Below, piece after piece: positions 10,653 to 36,890 of a stretch of 64,000 nt of DNA. Under the pieces are notes generated by a model, which was not told where the DNA came from, did not search any database, and was given only the letters and a program-made list of their open reading frames with translations. The DNA comes from Centroberyx gerrardi (taxonomy: Eukaryota > Chordata > Actinopteri > Beryciformes > Berycidae): the NCBI RefSeq assembly GCF_048128805.1, contig NC_136012.1, positions 11,779,725 through 11,843,724 on the forward strand. Reading direction: 5' to 3'. Made by a program: the position numbers and the translations under genes. Every line of letters begins with the position of its first letter. Position 1 is the first letter of the stretch.

Positions 10653-11630
10653 ATGATCGTGATCCAGAATGTGGGGCCCAGTTCCCCAGCCAGGCGCAGG
10701 AGACAATGGGTGAAGAGGCTCGAGTGGGGCGTCCTCCTGGGGCTGATGGTCCTCATCTATGGCTCCCACGCACCGCTCATCGCCCTCACCAAGGTCGATG
10801 GTCAAGTCCCCTTCAGCCCCTCTTCTTGCGTTGTCATGATTGAGTTAGTCAAACTCCTGATCTCCCTGGCGACCCTCCTCCTGACTGGGGACCCGTCTGC
10901 CTTACGCGCCGCTCCCTCCCTGGTCCTCGTGGCTCCCTATGCAGTCCCCGCCGTCCTCTACGCCCTCAACAACAACCTGGTAGTTCTCATGCAGGCCTAC
11001 ATGGACCCCAGCTCCTACCAAGTCCTCAGCAACCTGAAAATCGCCTCCACTGCCCTGCTCTACTCCTTTTGTCTGGGCAAGAGGCTTCGGTCCGCTCAGT
11101 GGTTATCGCTGGGGCTCCTCATGGGGGCCGGGGTGTGCCACAGCTACAGCAGCCTGGATCTGGGGGACCTGGAGAGGGCTGAAGCTGAGGCAAGTCCCCG
11201 GCTTCATGTCACAGCCTGGGGCCTTTTCCTGGTGCTGGTGTACTGCTTTATTTCAGGCCTGGCAGCTGTTTACACAGAGAGGGTGCTGAAGAGCCAGCAG
11301 CTGCCGCTCAGCCTGCAGAACCTTTACCTATATGTGTTTGGAGTGGCCATCAATGGGGTCTCCTCTCTCTCCAGTGTCGCAAGTGAAAAGGGTTTCCTGG
11401 AGGGATACTCAGGGGCTGTGTGGGCCATTATAGCAGGGCAGGCAGCTAACGGACTCCTGATGTCTGTGGTGCTGAAGCACGGCAGTGGGATCACCAGGCT
11501 GTTTGTCATCTCCTGCTCCATGCTGGTCAACGCTCTGTTGTCCTGGGCCATCTTAGGGCTGCAGCTCACCCCTCTTTTCCTCCTGCCCGTTTCTATGATC
11601 GGTCTGGCAGCTTACTTGTATTACAGGTAG
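10653..11630 (+). CDS. slc35a4: Solute carrier family 35 member A4, nucleotide-sugar transporter
   Basis: A single-exon frame of 325 codons, close to the roughly 324 residues of the mammalian protein. It begins MIVIQNVGPSSPARRRRQWV, an Arg-rich cytosolic head, followed by about eight to ten hydrophobic segments. The family signature is visible at about residues 110-170: NNNLVVLMQAYMDPSSYQVL, then SNLKIASTALLYSF and LGKRLRSAQWLSLGLLMGAG. The SLC35A family moves nucleotide sugars into the Golgi lumen in exchange for the nucleoside monophosphate. SLC35A4 has been linked to CDP-ribitol transport and UDP-sugar handling, but its substrate is less settled than that of its paralogues. An in-frame TTG lies two codons upstream, but the ATG at 10653 is the natural start. 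The codons are rich in G and C at third positions, unlike the flanking AT-rich UTRs. The 3' UTR runs to the AATAAA at 12207-12212. Confidence 0.95.
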   Translation: MIVIQNVGPSSPARRRRQWVKRLEWGVLLGLMVLIYGSHAPLIALTKVDGQVPFSPSSCVVMIELVKLLISLATLLLTGDPSALRAAPSLVLVAPYAVPAVLYALNNNLVVLMQAYMDPSSYQVLSNLKIASTALLYSFCLGKRLRSAQWLSLGLLMGAGVCHSYSSLDLGDLERAEAEASPRLHVTAWGLFLVLVYCFISGLAAVYTERVLKSQQLPLSLQNLYLYVFGVAINGVSSLSSVASEKGFLEGYSGAVWAIIAGQAANGLLMSVVLKHGSGITRLFVISCSMLVNALLSWAILGLQLTPLFLLPVSMIGLAAYLYYR

Positions 11631-12292: not shown

Positions 12293-15200
12293 TCATTGTT
12301 GTTGGGATAACAGCTCAGCCTTGGGATCACCTCGCACAGCTAGAGAGTCCTTTAGCTCTCCCAGTGCTATGGAGAAAATGAAAGAAAATTATTACATTGT
12401 AGATAAACCAATTTATGAAGACCAATGGCAGTGGAAGTACAGAGTTCACATCAAGGAATACCTTTCACATGTTACTTAAGAGGTAAAGGCAAAAACAGCT
12501 ACAAGCATAGCCCAAATCTGATAGAGGTCAGAAATAAGTGATACACATGAGCTCACCCGTGCGGAGTTGCTTGTTGTCGGCCTGCAGCTGCTGGTTCTGG
12601 GCAGACAGGTAGACGGCGTCCTGCACGGCCTCCAGCAGCAGAGCTCTGTATCTGCCCTCCGATGTCTTCCTCTGCTCCTCACTGACCTGACGAAACACTC
12701 TGAACACCTAGACAGGAAGCAACAGAGACGCAGAACAGCATGGGGGTGACACAGCAGCTGAACATGGGTCTTCATGTAAACACACATGCACAAACTAACG
12801 ATGGTATAACCAAATTGTCTTTGTTTGCCGTCTTTGGCACTTTTTTGTTTTGCGCTTTTTTATACACTTAATGTAATCATCAGAGACTGTTTGGAGATTT
12901 TCCTTTTTCCTGACTGTGTGAATTCCATTTATCTTCCTGATATACTGTATAGAATTGCTTAACGTGGTAAACTGTAGGATCCTTGTTTTCTTTTTATTTT
13001 CATTTTAGCGAAGCGGTAATTGCTGTGATGTTTTAGCATTGCACTTCCCAGAGATCACAACACCAGTGATGTGATGTCTTCTTCCTTAGATTTCCTGTTG
13101 ATGAACTTTGAGCTGTCTGTGCTAACTACCTAGCTCTTCTTCTGTTTATCCCAAACAAACTGCTGTTGCTGCTGGAAACATAAAGCGCTTCACTTCCTAT
13201 GTGGCAGAGGATTTTCCCTGGGAAAGACGTACCCAAACACCGGGTGTTCAGAACAGCAAATGTAAAATGTTAAAACTTTCATTACCTGAGTATGTGTTGA
13301 ATCACTGTTGTTTCATATCAATCGGCAACTGAGAGTAGCAAAATGGACATTTATTTATATGAAAATGTGGCAGATACTCGTTTTTCTCACATGGACCCAA
13401 GTAATTCCCACCTGGAGGCTCTCCTCCCTCAGACAATGCAGCTCCATCTGGTGTCTGCGGTATTGATCCTCCATGTCTCTCTCGGCCTGCTGGGCCTCAG
13501 TGCGCAGCGCCTCCATCTGCAGCACCAGGACCTGCCTCTCTTTGGCCAGCACCAGCAGCTCTCTCTGGGGACCCTCCGCCTAGCAGAAAAGTAGATGAAA
13601 AAATACAGAAAATGCGAGGAAAACAACAGAATTAAGTTGCATATGCAGGAGTTCCACTGTTCCACTAAAATAATAGGCTTGCATGAATTTAAACAGACTC
13701 AGCAACCTCAGCTAAGATAGATCAGAATCAGAATCATGTTAAACAATAGTGCATCTCATTATCCCACCGGTACCTGTTCATGCTCCAGTTCTCTCTCCAT
13801 CTTCTCCACCTCCTGCTGAATTAATCTCCCATGATCCTCCTTAAGTCGCCTCCTCCGCTCCTGTGCTTTGTTGTATTCCAACTGAGACTGATCATTAAAT
13901 TGCCAAGATGGATGTCTTAGTATGGGATGCCCATTTGTACACATACAAATGTCATTAATAGGGTATTAACACAGCATTGCAAACATGGTGCCACACTGGA
14001 TGTACAGGTGTTCAGTATATCTAATACAAAATGACTGGGTTCAGATGAAGTGCATTACCTGTTGTGAGAGGTCAGATTTCTCGGCAGCAGGCCCCTGCTT
14101 CACCATCTCCTCTCTGAGAGTCTCCCTCAGCTGCTGGATTCTAGCTACCCTCTCCTGGACCTTCTCCACATCCCCTTTACCCTCTGAGGATAGGACCAAC
14201 ACACGCAATATAGGGGTAATGGTAGTCCCTATATCCACAATTTAACACATTTTTTTCTTCAATTATCACAGCATAATACCTTTGATGTGTTCTTCCATTT
14301 CCTGTCTCAACTGGTCCTGTAAATATTTCATCCTGTCTGTGGTCTCTCTTTGGTCAATGCTGCGATCACCAGAGAGGTGCAGATTGCTGTTTGGGGACTG
14401 ACATCCCTGCCAAATCAATGCAACACATGACACCCATGACATCATTACATGCAAAGGGAACATAGTTTGTTGTCATTTTGGTAAATTTGTGGGCAAAATT
14501 CCACTTTTAGGTAGAAACCTTTATTTTGTCTTTTATCTTCTCTGACCGTTCCCTCCTCTTCTCCCATGACTGATCTTTCACAATCTGGTGGAGAGGTTAC
14601 AGAATGCAGATCAGCTGTAAAATCAAGAGGTTCCTACGAAAGGCGGCGGGAAACCACAACTGTGTCATTTAGCCATAAAGCGCCATCCCATAAATTACCT
14701 GCAGATTTTGAGTCAGCTCTGCTAGCCTATAGGTGGTCTGCTCTCCTTGTTCCCCCTGTGACATCATCGTGGTTCTTAGATCCAGGATGTTATCTCGGAT
14801 CTCTTGCTCGGTTGCCCTTGGACACCACCGACCAACGGCTGCCTTAGTTACCAAACCTCTCACCCTCTGGGCCAAAGCTAAGGCAGAGGGGGTCTCGTCA
14901 TCCAGGAGACCTGATGGGTTTGGGAGAGACAAGGTTAAATCAATTCAACCTCTGTGCTCATTGTGTGCTGAAAGGAATATAATGTAACCCGGTGGGAATT
15001 GGCCCAGAAGACCGACTGACCACTGACCTTGTGGTTGGATGCAGTAGAGGAGGACTGTCCTACTGTTTCCCGTGAAAGCGTCCTTTAGGAGGAAAGGGAG
15101 GAGCTTGTCGCTAGTCGTGGCTTCAAGATGGATTTGGTCCAGAACCTTTACCAGTGGGCTGACTCTGGGTGGGGTTAGGCAGTGACCGTTGAATCCAACA

Positions 15201-17690
15201 CATACTATTAACAGCTGATGAATTCAAAAATGCTGCTATAACTAATTTAAAGGACTTCTCTTTGGGAGTTTGGCCCATTGGTCACTGTGCCCAATATGTG
15301 ACGAGAGGATTGGCACTAAAATCATCTCTGCATGTGTCTCTGTCTGGTGCGTATGCTAACACTAGCATACAAAATGTTAAGTAATCGTTGGCGACTAGCA
15401 TTATCCTAAAAGTAAGAAAATTAAAACTTGTAGCAGCTCTAAGGCTGGATGTTAGTTAATTTTAATGATGTGTCTAAACCTGTCAGGCATGTTTAGGGGA
15501 TTGGTAAAACAGACATAAAATATGACAAAAAGAATGAACTTTCAATGGCAGAAGATCTATCTTCTCCCGAAACTTGTTTACACAGGAAGTGAGTGAAGTT
15601 AGCCAGACAACTGAAGTGTTTTGCACTGTTGATTCGTAATGGACTTATTAATGATGAAGATTGAGATTTTGTTTTCAGAAGTTATGAATCTACCGGCGAT
15701 AGAGTAAATAACAATACCAACTTTGGATTACTAAAAGGTTTATCTTTATACTTTGAATAAAGCTAATTGCCTACAATTACTTAACATCCTGTAAGCTAAA
15801 GTGTTAGCATGCGTACCGGACAGAACTATCTACCGGAGACAGAGATGATTTTGGTACCAATCCTCTATTCAGATATTGGTAAGATGACCAATGGGTGACC
15901 ACAGTTGGTGTAGGCCTTTAAGGCTTAGGAGGACATAGTATATTGTTTCTAGTTCCTTCAGCCCATGTAATAGATAGCTAACTGACCCTCTGAGGTCAGT
16001 CATGCTGGCCCCTCCTGCCAGGCTGAACAGCTGCAGTCTGCTGCGGCAGAACTCAGACTCCACCTTCTCCGCATGGAGTCTCCACTCAACGGCCACCGAG
16101 AACAGGGAACTGCATCTGAGGAACACACATATCATGAACATGTAGAGAGACACATACTCATCCTCAAATTTCAAGAAAGGGAACATGAATGACACCGTGT
16201 ACAACAGCCAGGAATCACAGTGACATATCTGCCAAGTGACAATCCAATCACTCATCCTACAGTTATACACTTAAGTCTATTGTGATTAGCCAGTGTAATT
16301 AAGTCATTCAAAGTAATTGAGTTCATGGATTACATGGCCAGTTTGCTTGACCTGTGCTCTAAGTGACCTACCTGCTAGAAATAGTTCCTGGATTGGCTTT
16401 CAGTGTCTCCCTCCCTGTTTCATAAAGACCACAGGCCTCTTCTGCTGAGCACACACACACTTCACACACCCCTCCTACAAGACTGAGACAAGAAGAAAGG
16501 TATTAAGCGCTTGTTTGTTGTTGTTATTGCGTCAATCTCGATACATGGCAGTGGAAGAAACTTCATCTGTGCTCACCATCCAAGGACTGGGTGAGACACA
16601 GGTTTTAGATCCTGTCTTTTGGGGCTCAGGAGATCCAGAGGACTGCCATCTGGGTGAAACTGGCAACACACCAGAAGTTAGTTGGCACGATATTGTGTCT
16701 AAGATGATTTTTGATCAGGGGGTTGTGAATGTAGAGAGACATACCTGAACGAAAGACACGGAGGTGAACAATTCTCCTTTCACTTCTGTTGATATACGAC
16801 CAAACACATTGGTCAAAACCTAAAATAGAGTTGGCTTATGTCATCACTGAACAGTCAATGAAAGCTGCTACTTTTTGGGTGTAGTTTTGTTTTGGACTCC
16901 ACCTGTTTGATGATGCCATGGTCTATCAGAGTGCCTGTCTGGTCTGACCTGGAGCTTCCACCAATCAGCAGCGCTCCATTATAACCACAGGATACAGACT
17001 CAGCGAGGGGCTGGAGGAGCTCAGGGTGGAATTTCTGCAGATTTATATTAAATTAGGAAATTTCCAAACATCATAGTACTTAGTACTGATTGAAAAACTG
17101 TAAGGAGTAGCTCAGATAGAACAGTTAGACCGCTGTAAATTACTGATGATCAGAGGTTCTTTAATACCTGAATGTTGTCCACAGTTGCAACTTGATCAAA
17201 TGAGAAAGACTTTGTTTCCTAATTGAAACACACATGGCTCATTAGAACAGTAAAAGCAGTAAAAGCTTCCTGAGAGCAAATTACTTTCTAGTTCTAGTTA
17301 AATACATAATGTTTTACCTCATCCTTTCCCGATGTGTAGTCCACACTATGTCTGTCTTCACTAACAACTACACAATTTCTACCCTCTGTGTCTGTGATTA
17401 AGACAAAGAAACACAGTGACGGTTGGAGGTGAAAATCCCCAGGGACAGCAATCCAATTTACACATTTTTGTCCTTACTTTACCTGGGATTTTAAATACAA
17501 CTCCCACTCTTACAGCTCCTTCAGATATTATCTGCACAGAGAGGGAAACCAGTCAGAGACTCAGAAAATACAATGACTTTGCATGAGACAGTCTGAAATT
17601 CCCTTAAAGTCTCATTACTGTCATTAAACACCACTATAGTCTCTACACTGCAAATGGTGACAAACAGTCGGTACTTACGGGTACGTCCAT
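12293..17690 (-). CDS. Divergent kinesin-like protein with degenerate motor domain (627 aa)
   Basis: Eighteen coding exons in transcript order: 17679-17690, 17483-17531, 17318-17391, 17168-17218, 16903-17034, 16745-16819, 16577-16659, 16372-16482, 15987-16115, 15028-15164, 14699-14910, 14519-14584, 14280-14406, 14059-14183, 13774-13881, 13412-13579, 12557-12707 and 12293-12366. They sum to 1,884 nt with no frame break. Residues 1-305 follow the kinesin motor fold: an N-terminal VRVGVVFKIP strand; a P-loop position at about 79-92 reading CGYNGALLIGGSSRS, with no GKT/S; switch I SSRCSS in place of SSRSH at about 194-199; switch II LFSLAGGAS in place of DLAGSE at about 226-233; then KLLPFLLKDAFTGNSRTVLL, matching the KLT-LLQDSLGGN region. 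Residues about 340-600 are charged heptad-like coiled coil. The key ATP-binding residues are missing, so it is probably a non-motile, pseudo-motor kinesin. I do not recognise the exact family member, so no symbol is given. Confidence 0.85.
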
Positions 17691-18149
17691 GTTCACAGAG
17701 GAAGAGATCTGTGGCCATGCATCCCATGCTTATGTCTACCATTGGCACTGGGTCACCTGGATTTGATTACACTGGTCTGAATTATTAATGAGCCAGACTC
17801 TACTTTCACTGGTCTGAGTGATGGGGGGTACGGTTACCAAGATGGACAGAAAGTTCAAAACTGAGGTCATCCGTGAACAATGATCCTTTGTAAAAATGAC
17901 AGGGGGATGTTTTGCTTTAACCATCTTCATCATGTCATTTTGGAACGTGATACAGTAAGGGATAAGACGAATAAAACATTACAAGCAAGTATGAAGTAAT
18001 CAGATTTATTTTAATGTGGTACATTATGTTCAAATCCTGTTGATAGATGAAGACATTATGTCTCAAATGTATTTGAGACATTAGAAACTGGTTCATTTGT
18101 TAATAACGTTCTGTATTATTACAAACAAGGATGCTGTCTCATGTAAACA
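17691..18149 (-). other. Short gap: kinesin-like 5' UTR and cd14 3' UTR
   Basis: Both flanking genes are on the minus strand. The kinesin-like 5' UTR starts somewhere right of 17690; a possible acceptor at 17758-17759 suggests a further noncoding exon. The cd14 3' UTR runs left from 18149 to a minus-strand AATAAA (TTTATT at 18005-18010). No other gene is seen. Confidence 0.45.
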
Positions 18150-19402
18150 TCAAAGAACATAAATCAGGCATGACAATAAACCAATAGAGAATACCAAACA
18201 GAGAGGGGAACCAGGGCGTTGTGTCCCACTGGCAGGTTTCACACATCGTTCAAGAGGCAGAAAGTCATCTAGCCGAGTCCCCTGTCGGGCCGCTGGTGTG
18301 GCGCACACAAAGCCCTTGGGCCGGTCCTCCACAGACACAGTGTCCGTGTCCTTCAGGAAGACGACAGTCTCTTTCAAGGCGCAGTCGCACTGATAAGGGT
18401 TCCTCCCTGCAAGGAGAACCTGAAGCCGCCTGAAACCGACTCCTGGCTCAGTCTCAGTCAACAAGACGGTCAGCCGGTTACCATCCACCCTGTGGTGGGC
18501 TGTGGAACGCCTCCAGAGCATTATAACTGAGATCCAGTACTTCCAGTGATGTAGGGAAGGCCGAGCCGACCTTGGTGATAAATTGAGCGTCCCGAGGGCG
18601 CTCACCCCCTGGAGGCAGAGGGGATAGTGGAGCGTGGAGAAATGGTTCCCGCTGACATCGAGTTCGGTGAGGGCAGGGCTGAGACTCGGCAGCGTGCACA
18701 GTGCCTGCAGGGAGGTGAGGTGGTTGTCTCTCAGACTAAGAGACTTCAGGTCCTGCAATGAAATAGATGGAGAGGAACAGTGCGAGATGTTCTGCAGGCT
18801 GGTGTCAGAGAGGTGGTCCTCTGACAGATCCAGATGAGCCAGGTTCCCTACCATTCCAGCCCAGCGGCACTCAATCTCCGCCAGGCCAGAACGGGCGATA
18901 GCAAGAGTTTTCAGGGGCCCAAACAACCAGTGGTGGAGAGCCTGGATGGAGGGCTGGAGGAGAGAGGAGTCTGCTGTTACATCCTGAAGTTGAAGGACTT
19001 TGATCTTAGAGGCTCCAGCTGGAGAGAGGAGAGGGCCGAACACCGGACGCTGCAAAGACTGCACACCTTCTAGAGTTGATGAAGCGATGCTAACCTCATT
19101 TATGTTAGACAGTGGCAGAAGTAGGATCAGTGCAGAGATGAATGGAAAGGATATAGTGACGTTGTTGAAGATTAGTTTATGTATCTTGGGAAACTGTAAA
19201 GCAGCACCTGTAACCTCCATGAAGCCATCCAGCCTGCCGTCCCTCAGCTCCAGTTCCAGAGCCTGGAAACAAGTCACCAGATGTTTTGGGGTGTGGATGA
19301 CCACAGCGCTGCATACACAATGGGTCCCATCCTCGCCAATGCTACAAAAGTGAAGATATGTCCCAAAAGCAGGAGTAGACCCACTGTCTTATTCGCCGTC
19401 AT
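18150..19402 (-). CDS. cd14: Monocyte differentiation antigen CD14 orthologue, with three apparent 1-nt frame breaks
   Basis: One coding exon. An ATG at 19400-19402 opens a signal-peptide-like start (MTANKTVGLLLLLGHIFTF). After a 1-nt slip near the TTTT at about 19347-19350, the body continues in another frame with CSIGEDGTHCVC, which resembles the cysteine-rich start of mature mammalian CD14. Leucine-rich repeats follow (LHHWLFGPLKTLAIARSG, LAHLDLSEDHLSD, LKSLSLRDNHL, LTELDVSGNHF), collinear with mammalian CD14. Between about 18585 and 18490 the repeat LEVLDLSYNALEAF lies in a different frame, entered and left by two compensating slips. The C-terminus has a cysteine-capping module (NPYQCDC to ERC) and a hydrophobic tail (LCLVFSIGLLSCLIYVL) that suits GPI attachment. 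CD14 binds LPS and hands it to TLR4-MD2 in tetrapods; the ligand in fish is unknown. The neighbouring slc35a4 matches human synteny. The slips could be assembly errors or early pseudogene decay. Confidence 0.85.
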
Positions 19403-21287: not shown

Positions 21288-24200
21288 TCAGTTCTCTTTC
21301 TTGTCTGGAAAAAGAAAACGCAAAGAATCAATGATGTGTATCCACCAACAAATACAAGCTCTGTTGATCTTTAAAAGCTGATCTGAGACGCTCACCCTCC
21401 TCGGTGCTGAAAGACTTCAGCTGCATCATCCTGGGTGCGGCCATCATGCGGCGAGGGGCTAAGAAAGAAAACGGACAGAAAATGAGGAAAAGCCGTCAAC
21501 TGTTCTCGGCACACGCAAAGACACAGGTGCAGTTTTCATTCGGCGGGAGCGTGTCCTCTACCTCTCTGGCATTCGGGCCTGCCGCGGATTTGAGTGCCCT
21601 CGATGGGGTTGCCGTTCTCGTCCACGCACCAGCAGTAGCCGGTGCTGTGCCAGCACTGCATGGGCTTGTAGCGGCCCTGCTCATCACACTGCGGCGTGTA
21701 GTAACCGGGCCTCACGCCTGCAGGAGCCGCCTCCGTCTGGCACTTGGTCAGGATGACAGTGGCTGATGAGGGATGGAGAGAGCAGAGGACGTTAGGACAT
21801 TAAAGGCCCGTTTCGACGATGTTAATTACCGCTAAGCGTAGCGCAGGACTAACATGATTTTTTTCTACTGAGATAAGAAGGAACTGAAGAACTGAGGTAG
21901 AAGGATCGAAAGAAGGAACTGAAACTAGTCTGACTCTATGTTTGTGAATATGGCAGGAGATGTGGTGAGGTGAAGAGAAAGGCTAAACTGTGACCTAAAA
22001 ATCCAAATGATATTCTCCTGTGGCTACTGCCAAGCTCCATACTCCATACTCTCTCCTTAGCTCTTATTTTATTTCTTTTCCAGCACTTCTCTCTTACATG
22101 AATATTGTCACGGTACTGTGGCCGTGACCCTGGCACTCCTTCCTGTAGGCTGCTGGAAATCTGATGGTAATCTAGGGAAATTAATCTTATTCTACTGTTG
22201 CACTCATTGTAAATTGCTCTGGATAAGAATGTCAGCTAACAAATGACTAAAATGTTAATGTAATGCTGGGGGGAAAGGTAGATTGGCTGCAGTAACCTGT
22301 CTCAGGTGTGGGGGGTGCAGGCGGCTTCTCCTGGGCCATCTGGAAGATCAGCCAGTGACGCATCCAGGACTCAAAGCCCTGAGGAATACACAGTATTTAG
22401 ATACAGAAGCTATACAACTGACAAGATGGTTTCTGTGTGCGTGTGTGTGTGTGTGTCTTCACCTTCCACTCACTGTCCTCCATCTGTTTCTGCAGGCTCT
22501 GCAGGTTGGCCAGGAAGGTCTCGTTGAACTGGGGCAGCTGGGAATTCTGGGCAAAACATAACCGTAGCTTAATGACGACAACTCACATCCACAGAGCTGA
22601 TAGTGATGCTTATGGATGGCAATGTGGTGAGACACAGGATACTGAGTGCAACATACCTGCAGGAGGTCCTTCACCAGTTTCTCCACATTCACAATAGCAG
22701 TGTCCTGCAGCTTCTGGTGGGACGGGAGAGAGGAGTCAAACATTCCGAATAATAAACACTGATCGGTATTCAGTGTTTTCTCATGTTTGTTTTCATTCAC
22801 ATTTTAATGAATTCTCACGTCCGAGGAGGTGTCATATATTATGAATAATCCAAGACGACATTTCGAGTCTCTTTTTTTTTTTTTAATGTGAGCTTGTTGT
22901 TGAGCTTGCACCTAGACACAGTTTAATGCCAGCTGTCATGGAGGCAGAAGGAGACCTACTGTCAGAGGCTGCTTCTTGGCCGTCTTTGGGTCTTCATCGG
23001 AGGTGAAGTCCATCAGCAGGGGCAGGCTGTTCATGGGCATGTGCATCTGCATTGGAGCCGCTGCAGGGGACAAGGGGAAACTGATGAACCAGTCTGGGGA
23101 TTTTACACCAGAGTACAAGATGGTGGTAGCTGCTCTAAGAACGGCAACCCTGTTTATTATCATAAACTGAAACTCAAACTAAGATGAAAACTAAGTGTTA
23201 AAAAACATTGTTGCAAGCTGAAATAAAATAAAAACTTTGTGGAAAAAAAACTTAAAATAGAAGTAAAATGATCTTCTCTACTTGTAAAACAAAGATAACT
23301 GTTTTTACTGAACACTAATTGAAAAATTCATGTTAATAAATTTGGAAAATAATTCATGATTTATTGTTTAGTACCAAAAACACTAAAACTAGAACTGAAA
23401 CTGAGAAAAAACCCCACCTAAAACTACTGAACCCACACTAAAAACTATCTAAACTGAAATTGAAATAAAAGCTGAGGACTACAGAAATATAAAAACTAAA
23501 TAAAAATATAAAAAATATATATATATAAAAATCCAAAACTATAACACTGCCGGCAACATATCATTAAACCAAGCTCACGACAAGATGTTTTCATACCAAC
23601 TCACCAGCCACATCTTAAATAGCCCTGATGAATAGACTGCTAGATATTATATTAAACTAAATCTAAATGAGACTGTTTCAATGCTTATGATGATTAGAAT
23701 ATAAACGTAGCGCACAGCTGATTTCTTATACTTTTCTTTCCTTCTCATTTTTCCCCTCTGTAGTCTGTACAGTGTTACACCTTCTGGTGCTTTCTCTTTT
23801 CACATCCTTCCTCAAAGCGAACTCTCACTTCCCTCTCCGCCTCCCAAGTCCTACAGCCTCCTCTTCCTCCTGTCTGATGAAGATCACTATTGGCAGACGA
23901 CGCATTTCTGAAGATGCACGCCTTCTCACACCTCTATATAAAGTCAGATAAACTAGACTATCATTCCCACCGGCACTGCCCAGCCTCCCAAAAGACCATT
24001 TGATCATTATGAGTTTATTTCCTCCCCCCCCTCACCCTGGGCTCTGCGGGTCAGCTGCTTGCGCATGTTCTCCGAGTTCCTCTGCAGCGAGTGGATCTCC
24101 TGCTTCTGGTTGAAGACCAGGTAGGCGGTGAAGACCTGGCTGGCCAGCAGCAGACAGGCCAGGGTCGTCAGCCCCGCCACCTTGAACGCACGGCTGTTGG

Positions 24201-25178
24201 AGGCCCTAGTCGGACGAAATATGCATGTGACTTGAAGAGGATGAAACAGTGGGGGAGAGGGGGGCAACCATGAGGCACAAGCAAGTTCACAGAAAGTCTT
24301 AGTGGGAAGTAGTGTACTAACTTTTACAGTATCTAGGTTTGGGGGAGTCCCTGTTTGTGGCATTTCCAAAGCATGTGTGGGTGTTTTGATTTGCCTTTTG
24401 GACAGTCCAGAACACAAAGAAATGCCCCTTATGTAAACCTAGAACTATGGGATTATCCAAAATATGCATTTAAAAAAAAAGCAAAACAATACTGCAACTC
24501 TGTGTTTAAGTAGGTCGAAAATAATCCAAAATATCCCAAATAACTTAATTAAACCCTAATATGTAAATACAGCCCAATGTTTTTGTCTGCTGCCCATTAT
24601 GAGCCAATAGCATGAGAGCATCACGAGTTACTAGGCAGACGCCTTCTGCTAATGCAAGGGGAAGTGTCAGGATTTCTGAGTACTAGTTATTAAACATGTA
24701 TAAACATCTTTTAAACGGTATAAATTATTTAAATAAGTATAAAAAGGCGCAATGCAATAACGACATTCAGTTATTAATGAACTGTTCCGCCTCATACAAA
24801 CTTTACTCTCTATGTTGTCTATAGGTGCTATCTAAATGAGTCATAGGTTTAAAAAAAAAAAGGAAAAAAAAGTTTCACCTGTAGTGTTGCATGTCAGTTA
24901 CCTTAAATAAACAGTTTTAAGGAGACTTTTTTTTTTTTTTTTTAACATTTACAGTTCTATATTTAAATTAAATTTCAGAATTTTGTTAAGCCATATATGC
25001 AATGGGCCGTGATTTACTAGCAAAGATTAAACGAAGGAATGACTGTTGCATTTAGTCTCATGTGTGGCAGCAGGCTGCTCGAGTCTCACCCTCGGGGTCT
25101 TCCAGGGAGAACCAGGGCCTCCTCACTGCCCGCCAGGCTGCCCGTGGCCAGAGGAGCATCTTCTGGAGAGCGGTCCAT
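21288..25178 (-). CDS. cd74: MHC class II invariant chain CD74, thyroglobulin-domain form (287 aa)
   Basis: Nine coding exons: 25090-25178, 24036-24205, 22960-23060, 22657-22713, 22463-22546, 22297-22378, 21562-21762, 21396-21458 and 21288-21304. They sum to 864 nt with intact phase. This is a type II membrane protein. The cytosolic tail (residues 1-38, MDRSPEDAPLATGSLAGSEE then ALVLPGRPRG) carries acidic-Leu sorting-like motifs. The membrane span is residues 39-61 (VAGLTTLACLLLASQVFTAY). A CLIP-like segment at about 87-104 is Met-rich (AAPMQMHMPMNSLPLLMDF). The trimerisation region at about 120-190 has an NET glycosylation site and the conserved FESWMRHWLIFQM. Residues about 200-261 are one thyroglobulin type-1 domain with CWCV and six cysteines. 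The protein chaperones class II in the ER, blocks the groove and directs it to endosomes. The thyroglobulin domain can inhibit cysteine cathepsins. The thyroglobulin exon is in-frame skippable (201 nt, phase 1-1). Confidence 0.96.
22130..22265 (+). repeat. Teleost SINE/LINE-type repeat tail inside a cd74 intron
   Basis: The segment ends in a sequence common at the 3' end of fish short interspersed elements: CTCATTGTAAATTGCTCTGG, then ATAAGAATGTCAGCTAACAA, then a degenerate AAATG-rich tail. A second, diverged copy of the same tail lies at 61005-61060. The 5' part is not identifiable, so the family cannot be named. Confidence 0.55.
22434..22456. repeat. (GT)n microsatellite beside cd74 exon 5 donor
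   Basis: A GT repeat on the plus strand, CA in the sense of cd74. It begins only about 6 nt downstream of the 5' splice site of the exon at 22463-22546. Confidence 0.85.
23170..23560. repeat. A-rich degenerate tandem repeat in cd74 intron 2
   Basis: Many loose variants of AAAACTGAAAT and CTAAAACTA follow one another, ending in an AT-rich (ATAT) stretch near 23512-23525. It looks like a decayed simple-sequence array. No coding frame. Confidence 0.5.
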
Positions 25179-26349: not shown

Positions 26350-28378
26350 GAAAAATACAGTGGTGTTTTATTTGCAAATTAAAAAGCACCGACAATATTA
26401 GTTACACTGTAAAAATTATTGACAACAATTACAAATCTTTATCATACAGTCCAGGAGATTAGTACCATCGTTGCTGTTATGTGTTATCACTTAATACTTT
26501 ATATGGAGAGATCCAGTACCTCTGTACAATAGTTGGCAGTGAGAGGATGTGAGAGGGAACAATCTTATCGACATACCTCCATACAATGAAATAATCCGAA
26601 CGGCAACAACGCACTCCCCCCCCCTCCCCCTTCGCACAGCACGGACACTTCACACTGTGAGAAGGGGCTGATGGAGAGTGTAAACCCAAACACATTCATA
26701 ATAATTTAGGTCTACCAAGGGTTGCGTATTATGTACATTACAAAGTCAGGAAACAAAAGGACCAACATGTGCATCGTTATTACGTCAGAACATTGTACAA
26801 AACTATTGCAATAAGAGCAGCTTTTGTTATCTATGCTTGACATCTAGTTGCAGTGGTAATACCTTGACCGGCAACCAAACGCCCGTATGGTCTACAAGTC
26901 ATACTGTTGGTCTGCCTGGCATCTTTACACGTTTTTCCCAGAGACAACATTTTTTCCCCCCAAAACTTAAAAGATCATCTGCTAAATGAAATGAAACAGA
27001 GGACAAAATCTACAGGTTTGACATAAAAACCCAATGTTGATACTGCGGTACTAGATGGATGATCTTGCTCTGTACACTCTACTTGAACCTCTTGAACCAG
27101 AGTGCTTATTTAACATAGCTAGCTTATGGTCATCTTCACAGATTGTAGTAGGATGCATTTCGTGAGTGTGCTTTCCGATAACCGGTATGCTGTGAACTGG
27201 TGTTCACTCGCGTGCCTTAAATAATTGTGCTTTCGACATTTATCCGACCGTTCCTGCTTTAGCCAGTTCCATGGTCCTGGAAATGACTAAAGGGAAGAAT
27301 AAAACAACAGTTTAACAAACCAGCCTACTGTACATCTGGCCTCTATGACGAAACTGAAACTAACATGTTTTGTTTTGTGGTACATTCTACAATAATGCGT
27401 TACCAACAGCATCATAGAAAAAGTTAAAACAAATAAAATCTGAGTAAAAAAAAAAAAAAAACTATCTTTAAAAAAAAAAGAAAAAAAAAAAAGAAAAGAA
27501 CCCTCAAATGTCCATGTAATAATATTTTGATGAAGATTCTGTCCTGGCACTTGTAAATGCGATAACTAGATTCTACCAAGGCCTATCAAATAAGGCTACA
27601 ACATGTAGCCTGAGTCAATACTCCAGATGTCCCATTCTGCTCCCACACAAATCCTTTAATTACCAAAGGCATCTGCAACTAATGCCTTTCTGTCAATCAA
27701 GCTCTCATCTATCTCCATACATTTTACACTGCCTGTTCTAATGTGCTCCATACAACACAACTCATGGCTGGAGACACAGATGGTTGTGTGTTCAAGTGTA
27801 TTCCGCTCCTTTCCTCGGAGCTGGCACTGTGACGACCGGTCAAGGTTCAGACTTCTTTCCTTCCTTAGATTTCAAGCTGAAGCTTTGAGTTCATGTGAGG
27901 AAGAGGCGGCCTGATTAAGGAGAGCAGGGATATGATTACTGAACACTTAACCTCCGCCCTGTGTGTCACTGTGCCTTCCCCTCTGCTTGAAAACACGGTG
28001 GAGGCCGTCATGTGGCTTCCACGTTTCTGTTTATTCCTTTGTGAGGATGGAGGCATCTCGAAGGACAAGGGAGAGCGGGGAGTGCACTTAGAAGCTGAAA
28101 GCAACTATGCTCCCTTCCCCCACCAGTTATTATGCTCTCTTCTCCCTTACCACCCACTTGTGCCCCATCCATCTTGTGAAGATCACAACAAGTTTTGAGT
28201 TCTGGGTGGGCAACCCATGTTCAAATCTCCATTTTGATAGATTTCAGTCTCTTTCAAAACCGCTTGGGATCTTCGACTTCTTGGGCTGCTCCCGTCATAC
28301 ACGGCCAAATTCCCCCGGGGGGGGGGGGGGCTGAGCTGTGGTTCAGTCTGTGGAGCTGTGGTCTCCCGCTGGGTGCTG
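26350..28378 (-). other. ndst1: ndst1 3' UTR (left edge approximate)
   Basis: About 2 kb of noncoding sequence follows the ndst1 stop codon at 28379-28381. It reaches a minus-strand AATAAA (TTTATT at 26370-26375). A run of 14 G (28317-28330) and several A/T runs near 27440-27500 lie inside. A long 3' UTR suits NDST1, but the end point is inferred only from the signal. Confidence 0.45.

Positions 28379-36890
<8,512 letters not shown>

Follow-up and report, generated by a model that had tools for sequence, protein, structure and literature searches.

We found in Centroberyx gerrardi an LRR gene that is likely to be a single ray-finned-fish orthologue of CD14, present in the assembly as a disabled copy. 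The gene lies on the minus strand of a 64,000-nucleotide stretch of DNA (the window; C16:11779725-11843724 of an assembly of 779 Mb in 278 contigs), where it runs from an ATG at 19402-19400 to a stop codon at 18152-18150. It very probably descends from CD14. Given that descent, we have good reason to regard the assembled copy as disabled, and it is probably a pseudogene of recent origin or a null allele.

That fish tolerate LPS is commonly attributed to the absence of CD14, MD-2 and TLR4. CD14 has indeed often been described as missing from fish, as the first-pass annotation of this DNA had remarked: passages in papers from 2018-2025 state that it is not known outside amniotes (PMC5826337), that it is absent from zebrafish (PMC12689318, PMC12469797) and that it was not found in teleost genomes (PMC6277787, PMC9533005). 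An Atlantic cod paper labels CD14 putative (PMC4850435), while an antibody-based goldfish paper terms its signal CD14-like, and papers on lumpfish, salmon B cells, PhyloFish and seahorse held nothing on fish CD14. No report of a fish CD14 gene appeared among the papers, mostly the top-ranked ones, that our literature searches listed; the literature took in few subscription journals and left gene annotation outside, and an unpublished database entry is possible. In mammals, LBP supplies CD14 with lipid monomers, which CD14 hands to MD-2/TLR4 or to TLR1/2, according to a passage of PMC9533005. With its conserved neighbour, a CD14 locus in fish would tell where to look in every fish genome; it would also place the origin of the gene before fish and tetrapods diverged and make its loss or use directly testable.

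The encoded LRR protein comprises a signal peptide, a C-x8-CVC-x13-C N-cap, CD14-like repeats, a TLR-like LRRCT cap and a GPI-like tail, but it is split over three frames, and a single frame from start to stop is absent. Its parts are as follows.

19349..19402, minus strand: start codon and signal peptide MTANKTVGLLLLLGHIFT, with a best 12-residue hydropathy of 2.42
18582..19346, minus strand: mature N-cap and first repeats in the second frame (CSIGEDGTHCVC...LGTLN), from frame reading
19269..19346, minus strand: CD14-type N-cap C-x8-C-V-C-x13-C, which fits CD14 and not the six TLRs compared
18490..18579, minus strand: repeat LEVLDLSYNAL in the third frame, between breaks 2 and 3, from frames and alignment
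18153..18488, minus strand: C-terminal part, in the second frame again, with the stop at 18150-18152, from frame reading
18243..18401, minus strand: LRRCT cysteine cap NPYQCDC...FVC...ERC, TLR-like and not in mammalian CD14
18153..18242, minus strand: tail with its final 18 residues hydrophobic and its end uncharged, a putative GPI signal
18010..18015, minus strand: ATTAAA, possibly a poly(A) signal, at a distance of 137 nt from the stop codon's first base

The order of frames is thus MTANKTVGLLLLLGHIFT in the first, CSIGEDGTHCVC to LGTLN in the second, ITKVGSAFPTSLEVLDLSYNALEAFHSPPQ in the third and, from VDGNRL to the stop, a return to the second. Since the LEVLDLSYNAL repeat, which falls within ITKVGSAFPTSLEVLDLSYNALEAFHSPPQ, is read in a different frame from the main body, and the signal peptide in yet another, the gene contains three breaks, at about 19348 (break 1), about 18580 (break 2) and about 18489 (break 3). 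The first-pass annotation had placed a gene at 18150..19402 on the strength of the motifs LHHWLFGPLKTLAIARSG, LAHLDLSEDHLSD, LKSLSLRDNHL, LEVLDLSYNAL, a CxxxxxxxxCVC start and NPYQCDC. All of these are present on the minus strand, and the start and stop codons stand, but the frame is not continuous, the three breaks having been overlooked.

The main frame (f0) extends over 412 codons from stop to stop without an internal stop, a length with a chance of (61/64)^412, or about 3e-9 per start. Its Pfam LRR_8 match just reached the cut-off (27.1 bits against 27), and an AlphaFold2 model of this single frame was uninformative (mean pLDDT 37). The stop codon follows directly after the hydrophobic tail. 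No TIR family was seen in a Pfam scan of the f0 frame, which ends at 18150, and the gene lacks the transmembrane helix and TIR domain of TLR1/2 receptors. The tail proposed earlier as suitable for a GPI anchor does have the hydrophobic, uncharged end that this suggestion calls for, and no TIR; from these features the protein is predicted to be GPI-anchored. The cap around NPYQCDC had been called TLR-like and unlike mammalian CD14, and both PDB matches and the alignment show it as an LRRCT.

The first 60 residues align globally with human CD14 at z 6.2 and with mouse CD14 at z 4.7, with 0 of 2000 shuffles as good in either case, whereas z ranges from -1.0 to 1.5 against six TLRs (human TLR1, mouse TLR2, mouse TLR6, human TLR4, fish TLR1 and fish TLR14). 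The N-cap region of human CD14 itself reaches z 2.7-3.1 against TLR1/TLR2. The fish gene has the CD14 N-cap pattern C-x8-C-x-C-x13/14-C, so that the description of its mature start as CD14-like is well founded. In the 12-row alignment, column 227 (human GVCAAL) holds a cysteine in 3 of 3 CD14 rows and in 0 of 9 TLR rows; seven of the eight cysteines of CD14 are aligned in the fish gene, and the remaining one is shifted by one residue. The repeats follow the order of mammalian CD14, as had been noted, in comparison with the human and mouse sequences.

Similarity over the whole protein is divided between CD14 and the TLRs. We fitted mature CD14 at full length to five fish proteins: human CD14 scored 125 with the read-through of the CD14-like gene versus 49 with TLR14, 41 with TLR1, 1 with TLR4 and -13 with a TLR2-like protein, and mouse CD14 scored 130 versus 96, 48, 22 and 26, respectively. 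In BLAST searches among fish proteins, human CD14 ranks the CD14-like gene first, and mouse CD14 matches fish TLR14 best (52.4 bits versus 47.0 for the CD14-like gene). By phmmer totals a TLR is ahead for both queries, narrowly so for human CD14 (fish TLR1, 30.8 versus 30.4), while the best single stretch puts the CD14-like gene ahead for both (30.0 versus 18.5 and 35.7 versus 30.9). The unjoined f0 frame is missing from the match list of human CD14. The repeat core reaches z 10.3 with human TLR1 and 10.8 with mouse TLR2 versus 6.0 and 7.4 with human and mouse CD14; a PDB search with the f0 frame lists TLR2 first (1.9e-11) and mouse CD14 far lower (0.003), and BLAST of the fish gene gives 80.9 bits for human TLR1 and 45-47 bits for CD14. 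This preference of BLAST and the PDB search for TLRs arises in part because mammalian CD14 has no LRRCT. Identity amounts to 23% over about 250 aligned columns with CD14 and to 25-28% with TLR1 and TLR2. No relatives were found in the genome-contig and viral-contig collections scanned.

The protein thus combines traits of both groups. With CD14 (human 4GLP, mouse 1WWL) it shares the N-cap cysteines, the repeat order, the absence of TIR, a GPI-like tail and the slc35a4 neighbour with its orientation, and it differs by its added LRRCT cap and three frame breaks. With the ectodomains of TLR1/TLR2/TLR6 it shares the central repeats and the LRRCT, but it lacks their N-terminal repeats, one C-terminal repeat and the transmembrane and TIR parts, and carries the N-cap and cysteine of CD14. 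Chicken CD14, compared by description only, is a further non-mammalian likeness: a passage of the review PMC7157566 assigns it eight conserved cysteines and reports it as transmembrane, whereas the fish tail looks GPI-like.

The neighbouring genes in the window are the following.

10653..11630, plus strand: intact 325-aa ORF, which we take to be slc35a4 (Nuc_sug_transp, E 3e-45)
12300..17766 (approximate), minus strand: coding-like exons that separate slc35a4 from the CD14-like gene and include a single weak match to a kinesin motor (E 0.033, under Pfam's cut-off)
21330..24440 (approximate), minus strand: cd74, from domain matches (MHC2-interact and thyroglobulin-1 exons)
28180..36890 (approximate), minus strand: ndst1, 720 aa of selected exons against human NDST1 (8cd0), 1273 bits

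The order in the window is an HMG-box gene, presumably hmgxb3, to the left of slc35a4 (+), followed by the coding-like exons (-), the CD14-like gene (-), cd74 (-) and ndst1 (-). Outside the window lie a csf1r-like kinase, whose best PDB matches are a near tie (CSF1R 64.4 bits, KIT 63.5), rbm22, a myozenin and a haem-NO-binding gene. In human and anole the order is Apbb3(-) Slc35a4(+) Cd14(-) Tmco6(+) Ndufa2(-) Ik(+), as given in a table of PMC2764143. The CD14-like gene lies 6.5 kb from slc35a4 on the opposite strand, in the human/anole orientation. On its far side tmco6-ndufa2-ik, which is a tetrapod gene order and not a property of the protein, is absent, cd74-ndst1 stands there instead, and IK, located via its RED_N exons, is on C11 and not on C16. 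The earlier statement that the gene sits next to slc35a4 as in mammals therefore holds for the slc35a4 side and for orientation, but not for immediate adjacency, since exons intervene, nor for the other flank.

Maximum-likelihood trees bear on whether the gene could instead have arisen independently by truncation of a TLR1/2/14-type receptor, for instance as a soluble or GPI-anchored decoy, an explanation we consider improbable. The best trees join the fish gene to mammal CD14, with support of 78/90 for 12 rows and 66/91 for 11 rows, but most of the TLR alternatives are not rejected by the AU test: grouping with TLR2 (p 0.09), with the TLR1 clade (0.12), with TLR14 (0.16) and with the TLR2-like frame (0.26) all persist, as does a tree that leaves mammal CD14 outside (0.14). 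The one placement that the test rejects is as sister to fish TLR1 alone (p 0.004). A derivative of this kind would account for the TLR-type LRRCT and for a core closer to TLR1/TLR2, and a TLR1-type gene lies on the same chromosome, about 275 kb off. Yet it would need convergence in the N-cap, the CD14-only cysteine, the missing N-terminal repeats and the position and orientation beside slc35a4. Since LRR proteins match one another generically and the mammalian CD14 branch is long (1.7-1.8 in the trees), we give the N-cap, cysteine, truncation and position more weight than the similarity of the repeats. Orthology with CD14 is hence the best reading, as the first-pass annotation had proposed, although placement within another LRR family is excluded only weakly (AU p 0.09-0.26).

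Whether the breaks belong to the fish or to its assembly is a separate matter. An intact, working fish CD14 with three assembly errors seems to us unlikely, though clearly less so than a TLR derivative. Break 1, just upstream of the mature N-cap, is a frame change within a short T run, the 412 codons contain no internal stop, and breaks 2 and 3, across both of which the f0 frame stays open, together restore the frame. At these two breaks, however, the gene lacks 5-6 and 8-10 residues that are found in 11 of 11 other rows of the alignment, which makes deletions likelier than base-call slips. The long coding frames used as controls in this assembly count against errors too: slc35a4, eleven NDST1 exons and frames for TLR1, TLR14 and FLRT-like proteins are unbroken, and among 19 TIR-bearing frames eight are open over 746-1071 codons and one has a stop. 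If breaks were evenly spread over the gene and about 10.1 kb of control frames, a non-random sample that includes hand-picked NDST1 exons, the probability that 3 of 3 fall in the CD14-like gene would be about 0.0013. Splicing was also considered as a source of the frame changes, but no GT/AG pair seen around breaks 2-3 restores the frame. Least probable of all, in our view, is that the breaks are real in the species and that the f0 frame is used from another start or exon, yielding a protein with one altered repeat. The open frame across breaks 2 and 3 would permit this, and in mammals an intron follows the first codon of CD14. Our analysis revealed no exon upstream, though, the good signal peptide sits in another frame, and excising the third-frame stretch at GT/AG-like ends leaves the frame unrestored. 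We therefore favour a disabled CD14 copy, whose decay, if real, is recent given the absence of in-frame stops in 412 codons; broken in three places, it marks the former site of the gene rather than its use by the fish.

For such a decayed orthologue, CD14 would have arisen from a TLR1/2-type ectodomain by loss of the first repeats and of the transmembrane-TIR part, and the fish gene would retain an ancestral LRRCT that was lost in mammals; the presence of a TLR-type cap in a CD14 would show the origin of CD14. The ancestral protein may have been GPI-anchored on myeloid cells, and its N-terminal pocket, by analogy with mammals, could have taken up bacterial lipid and delivered it to TLR partners, for which TLR4- and TLR1-type genes are at hand in this genome. 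The gene would since have decayed in this individual or lineage. We are evenly divided on a broader scenario, in which CD14 dates back to the first bony vertebrates, derives from the ectodomain of a TLR1/2-type receptor and persists, in an ancestral form with an LRRCT cap, in some ray-finned fish beside TLR4 and perhaps MD-2. Fish would then have lost the LPS co-receptor step by step, and this lineage would have been caught soon after the loss.

A search of the whole genome with the f0 protein gave no second CD14-like copy among the matches listed, which were its own locus and six weak ones (E 0.003-0.8); several of the weak ones are frames of TLRs or other LRR proteins. TLR4 is encoded on the minus strand at C9:25834000-25843900 by an open 746-codon exon. 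Its TIR domain is 54% identical to that of human TLR4 over 145 residues (157.7 bits versus 101.4 for the next frame), and the exon matches the human TLR4 ectodomain with 33% over 545 residues at 241 bits (best non-TLR4 51.6, in a small set); upstream of it lies an exon-2-like match (42% over 57 aa). This adds a TLR4 in a fish genome other than the usual zebrafish example. A stretch of 42 residues on the minus strand at C14:18184903-18185037, which has 43% identity with human MD-2, three cysteines at the matching positions and a genome-wide E of 2.45, suggests an MD-2 exon; no further MD-2 exon was found in the 4.4 kb downstream of it, and a weak PF02221 match on C21 showed none. A set of CD14 partners may thus exist in this genome, but this copy of CD14 is probably not serving them.

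Several further loci came to light in the same assembly. The TLR1-type frame on C16 is intact over 819 codons at about 11.52 Mb; near it are a family-1 glycosyl hydrolase (klotho-like) and a nicotinic receptor subunit, surroundings that we take to resemble the human 4p14 TLR1 region. At C3:15981289-15981513, a TIR match belongs to a 621-codon frame that a single TAA interrupts. At C4:9369722-9378952, four TIR-bearing frames that resemble one another, each of 424-425 codons, follow at intervals of about 3 kb, and C17:15216474-15223760 holds three near-identical tandem copies of an ML-domain (PF02221) gene, presumably NPC2-like.
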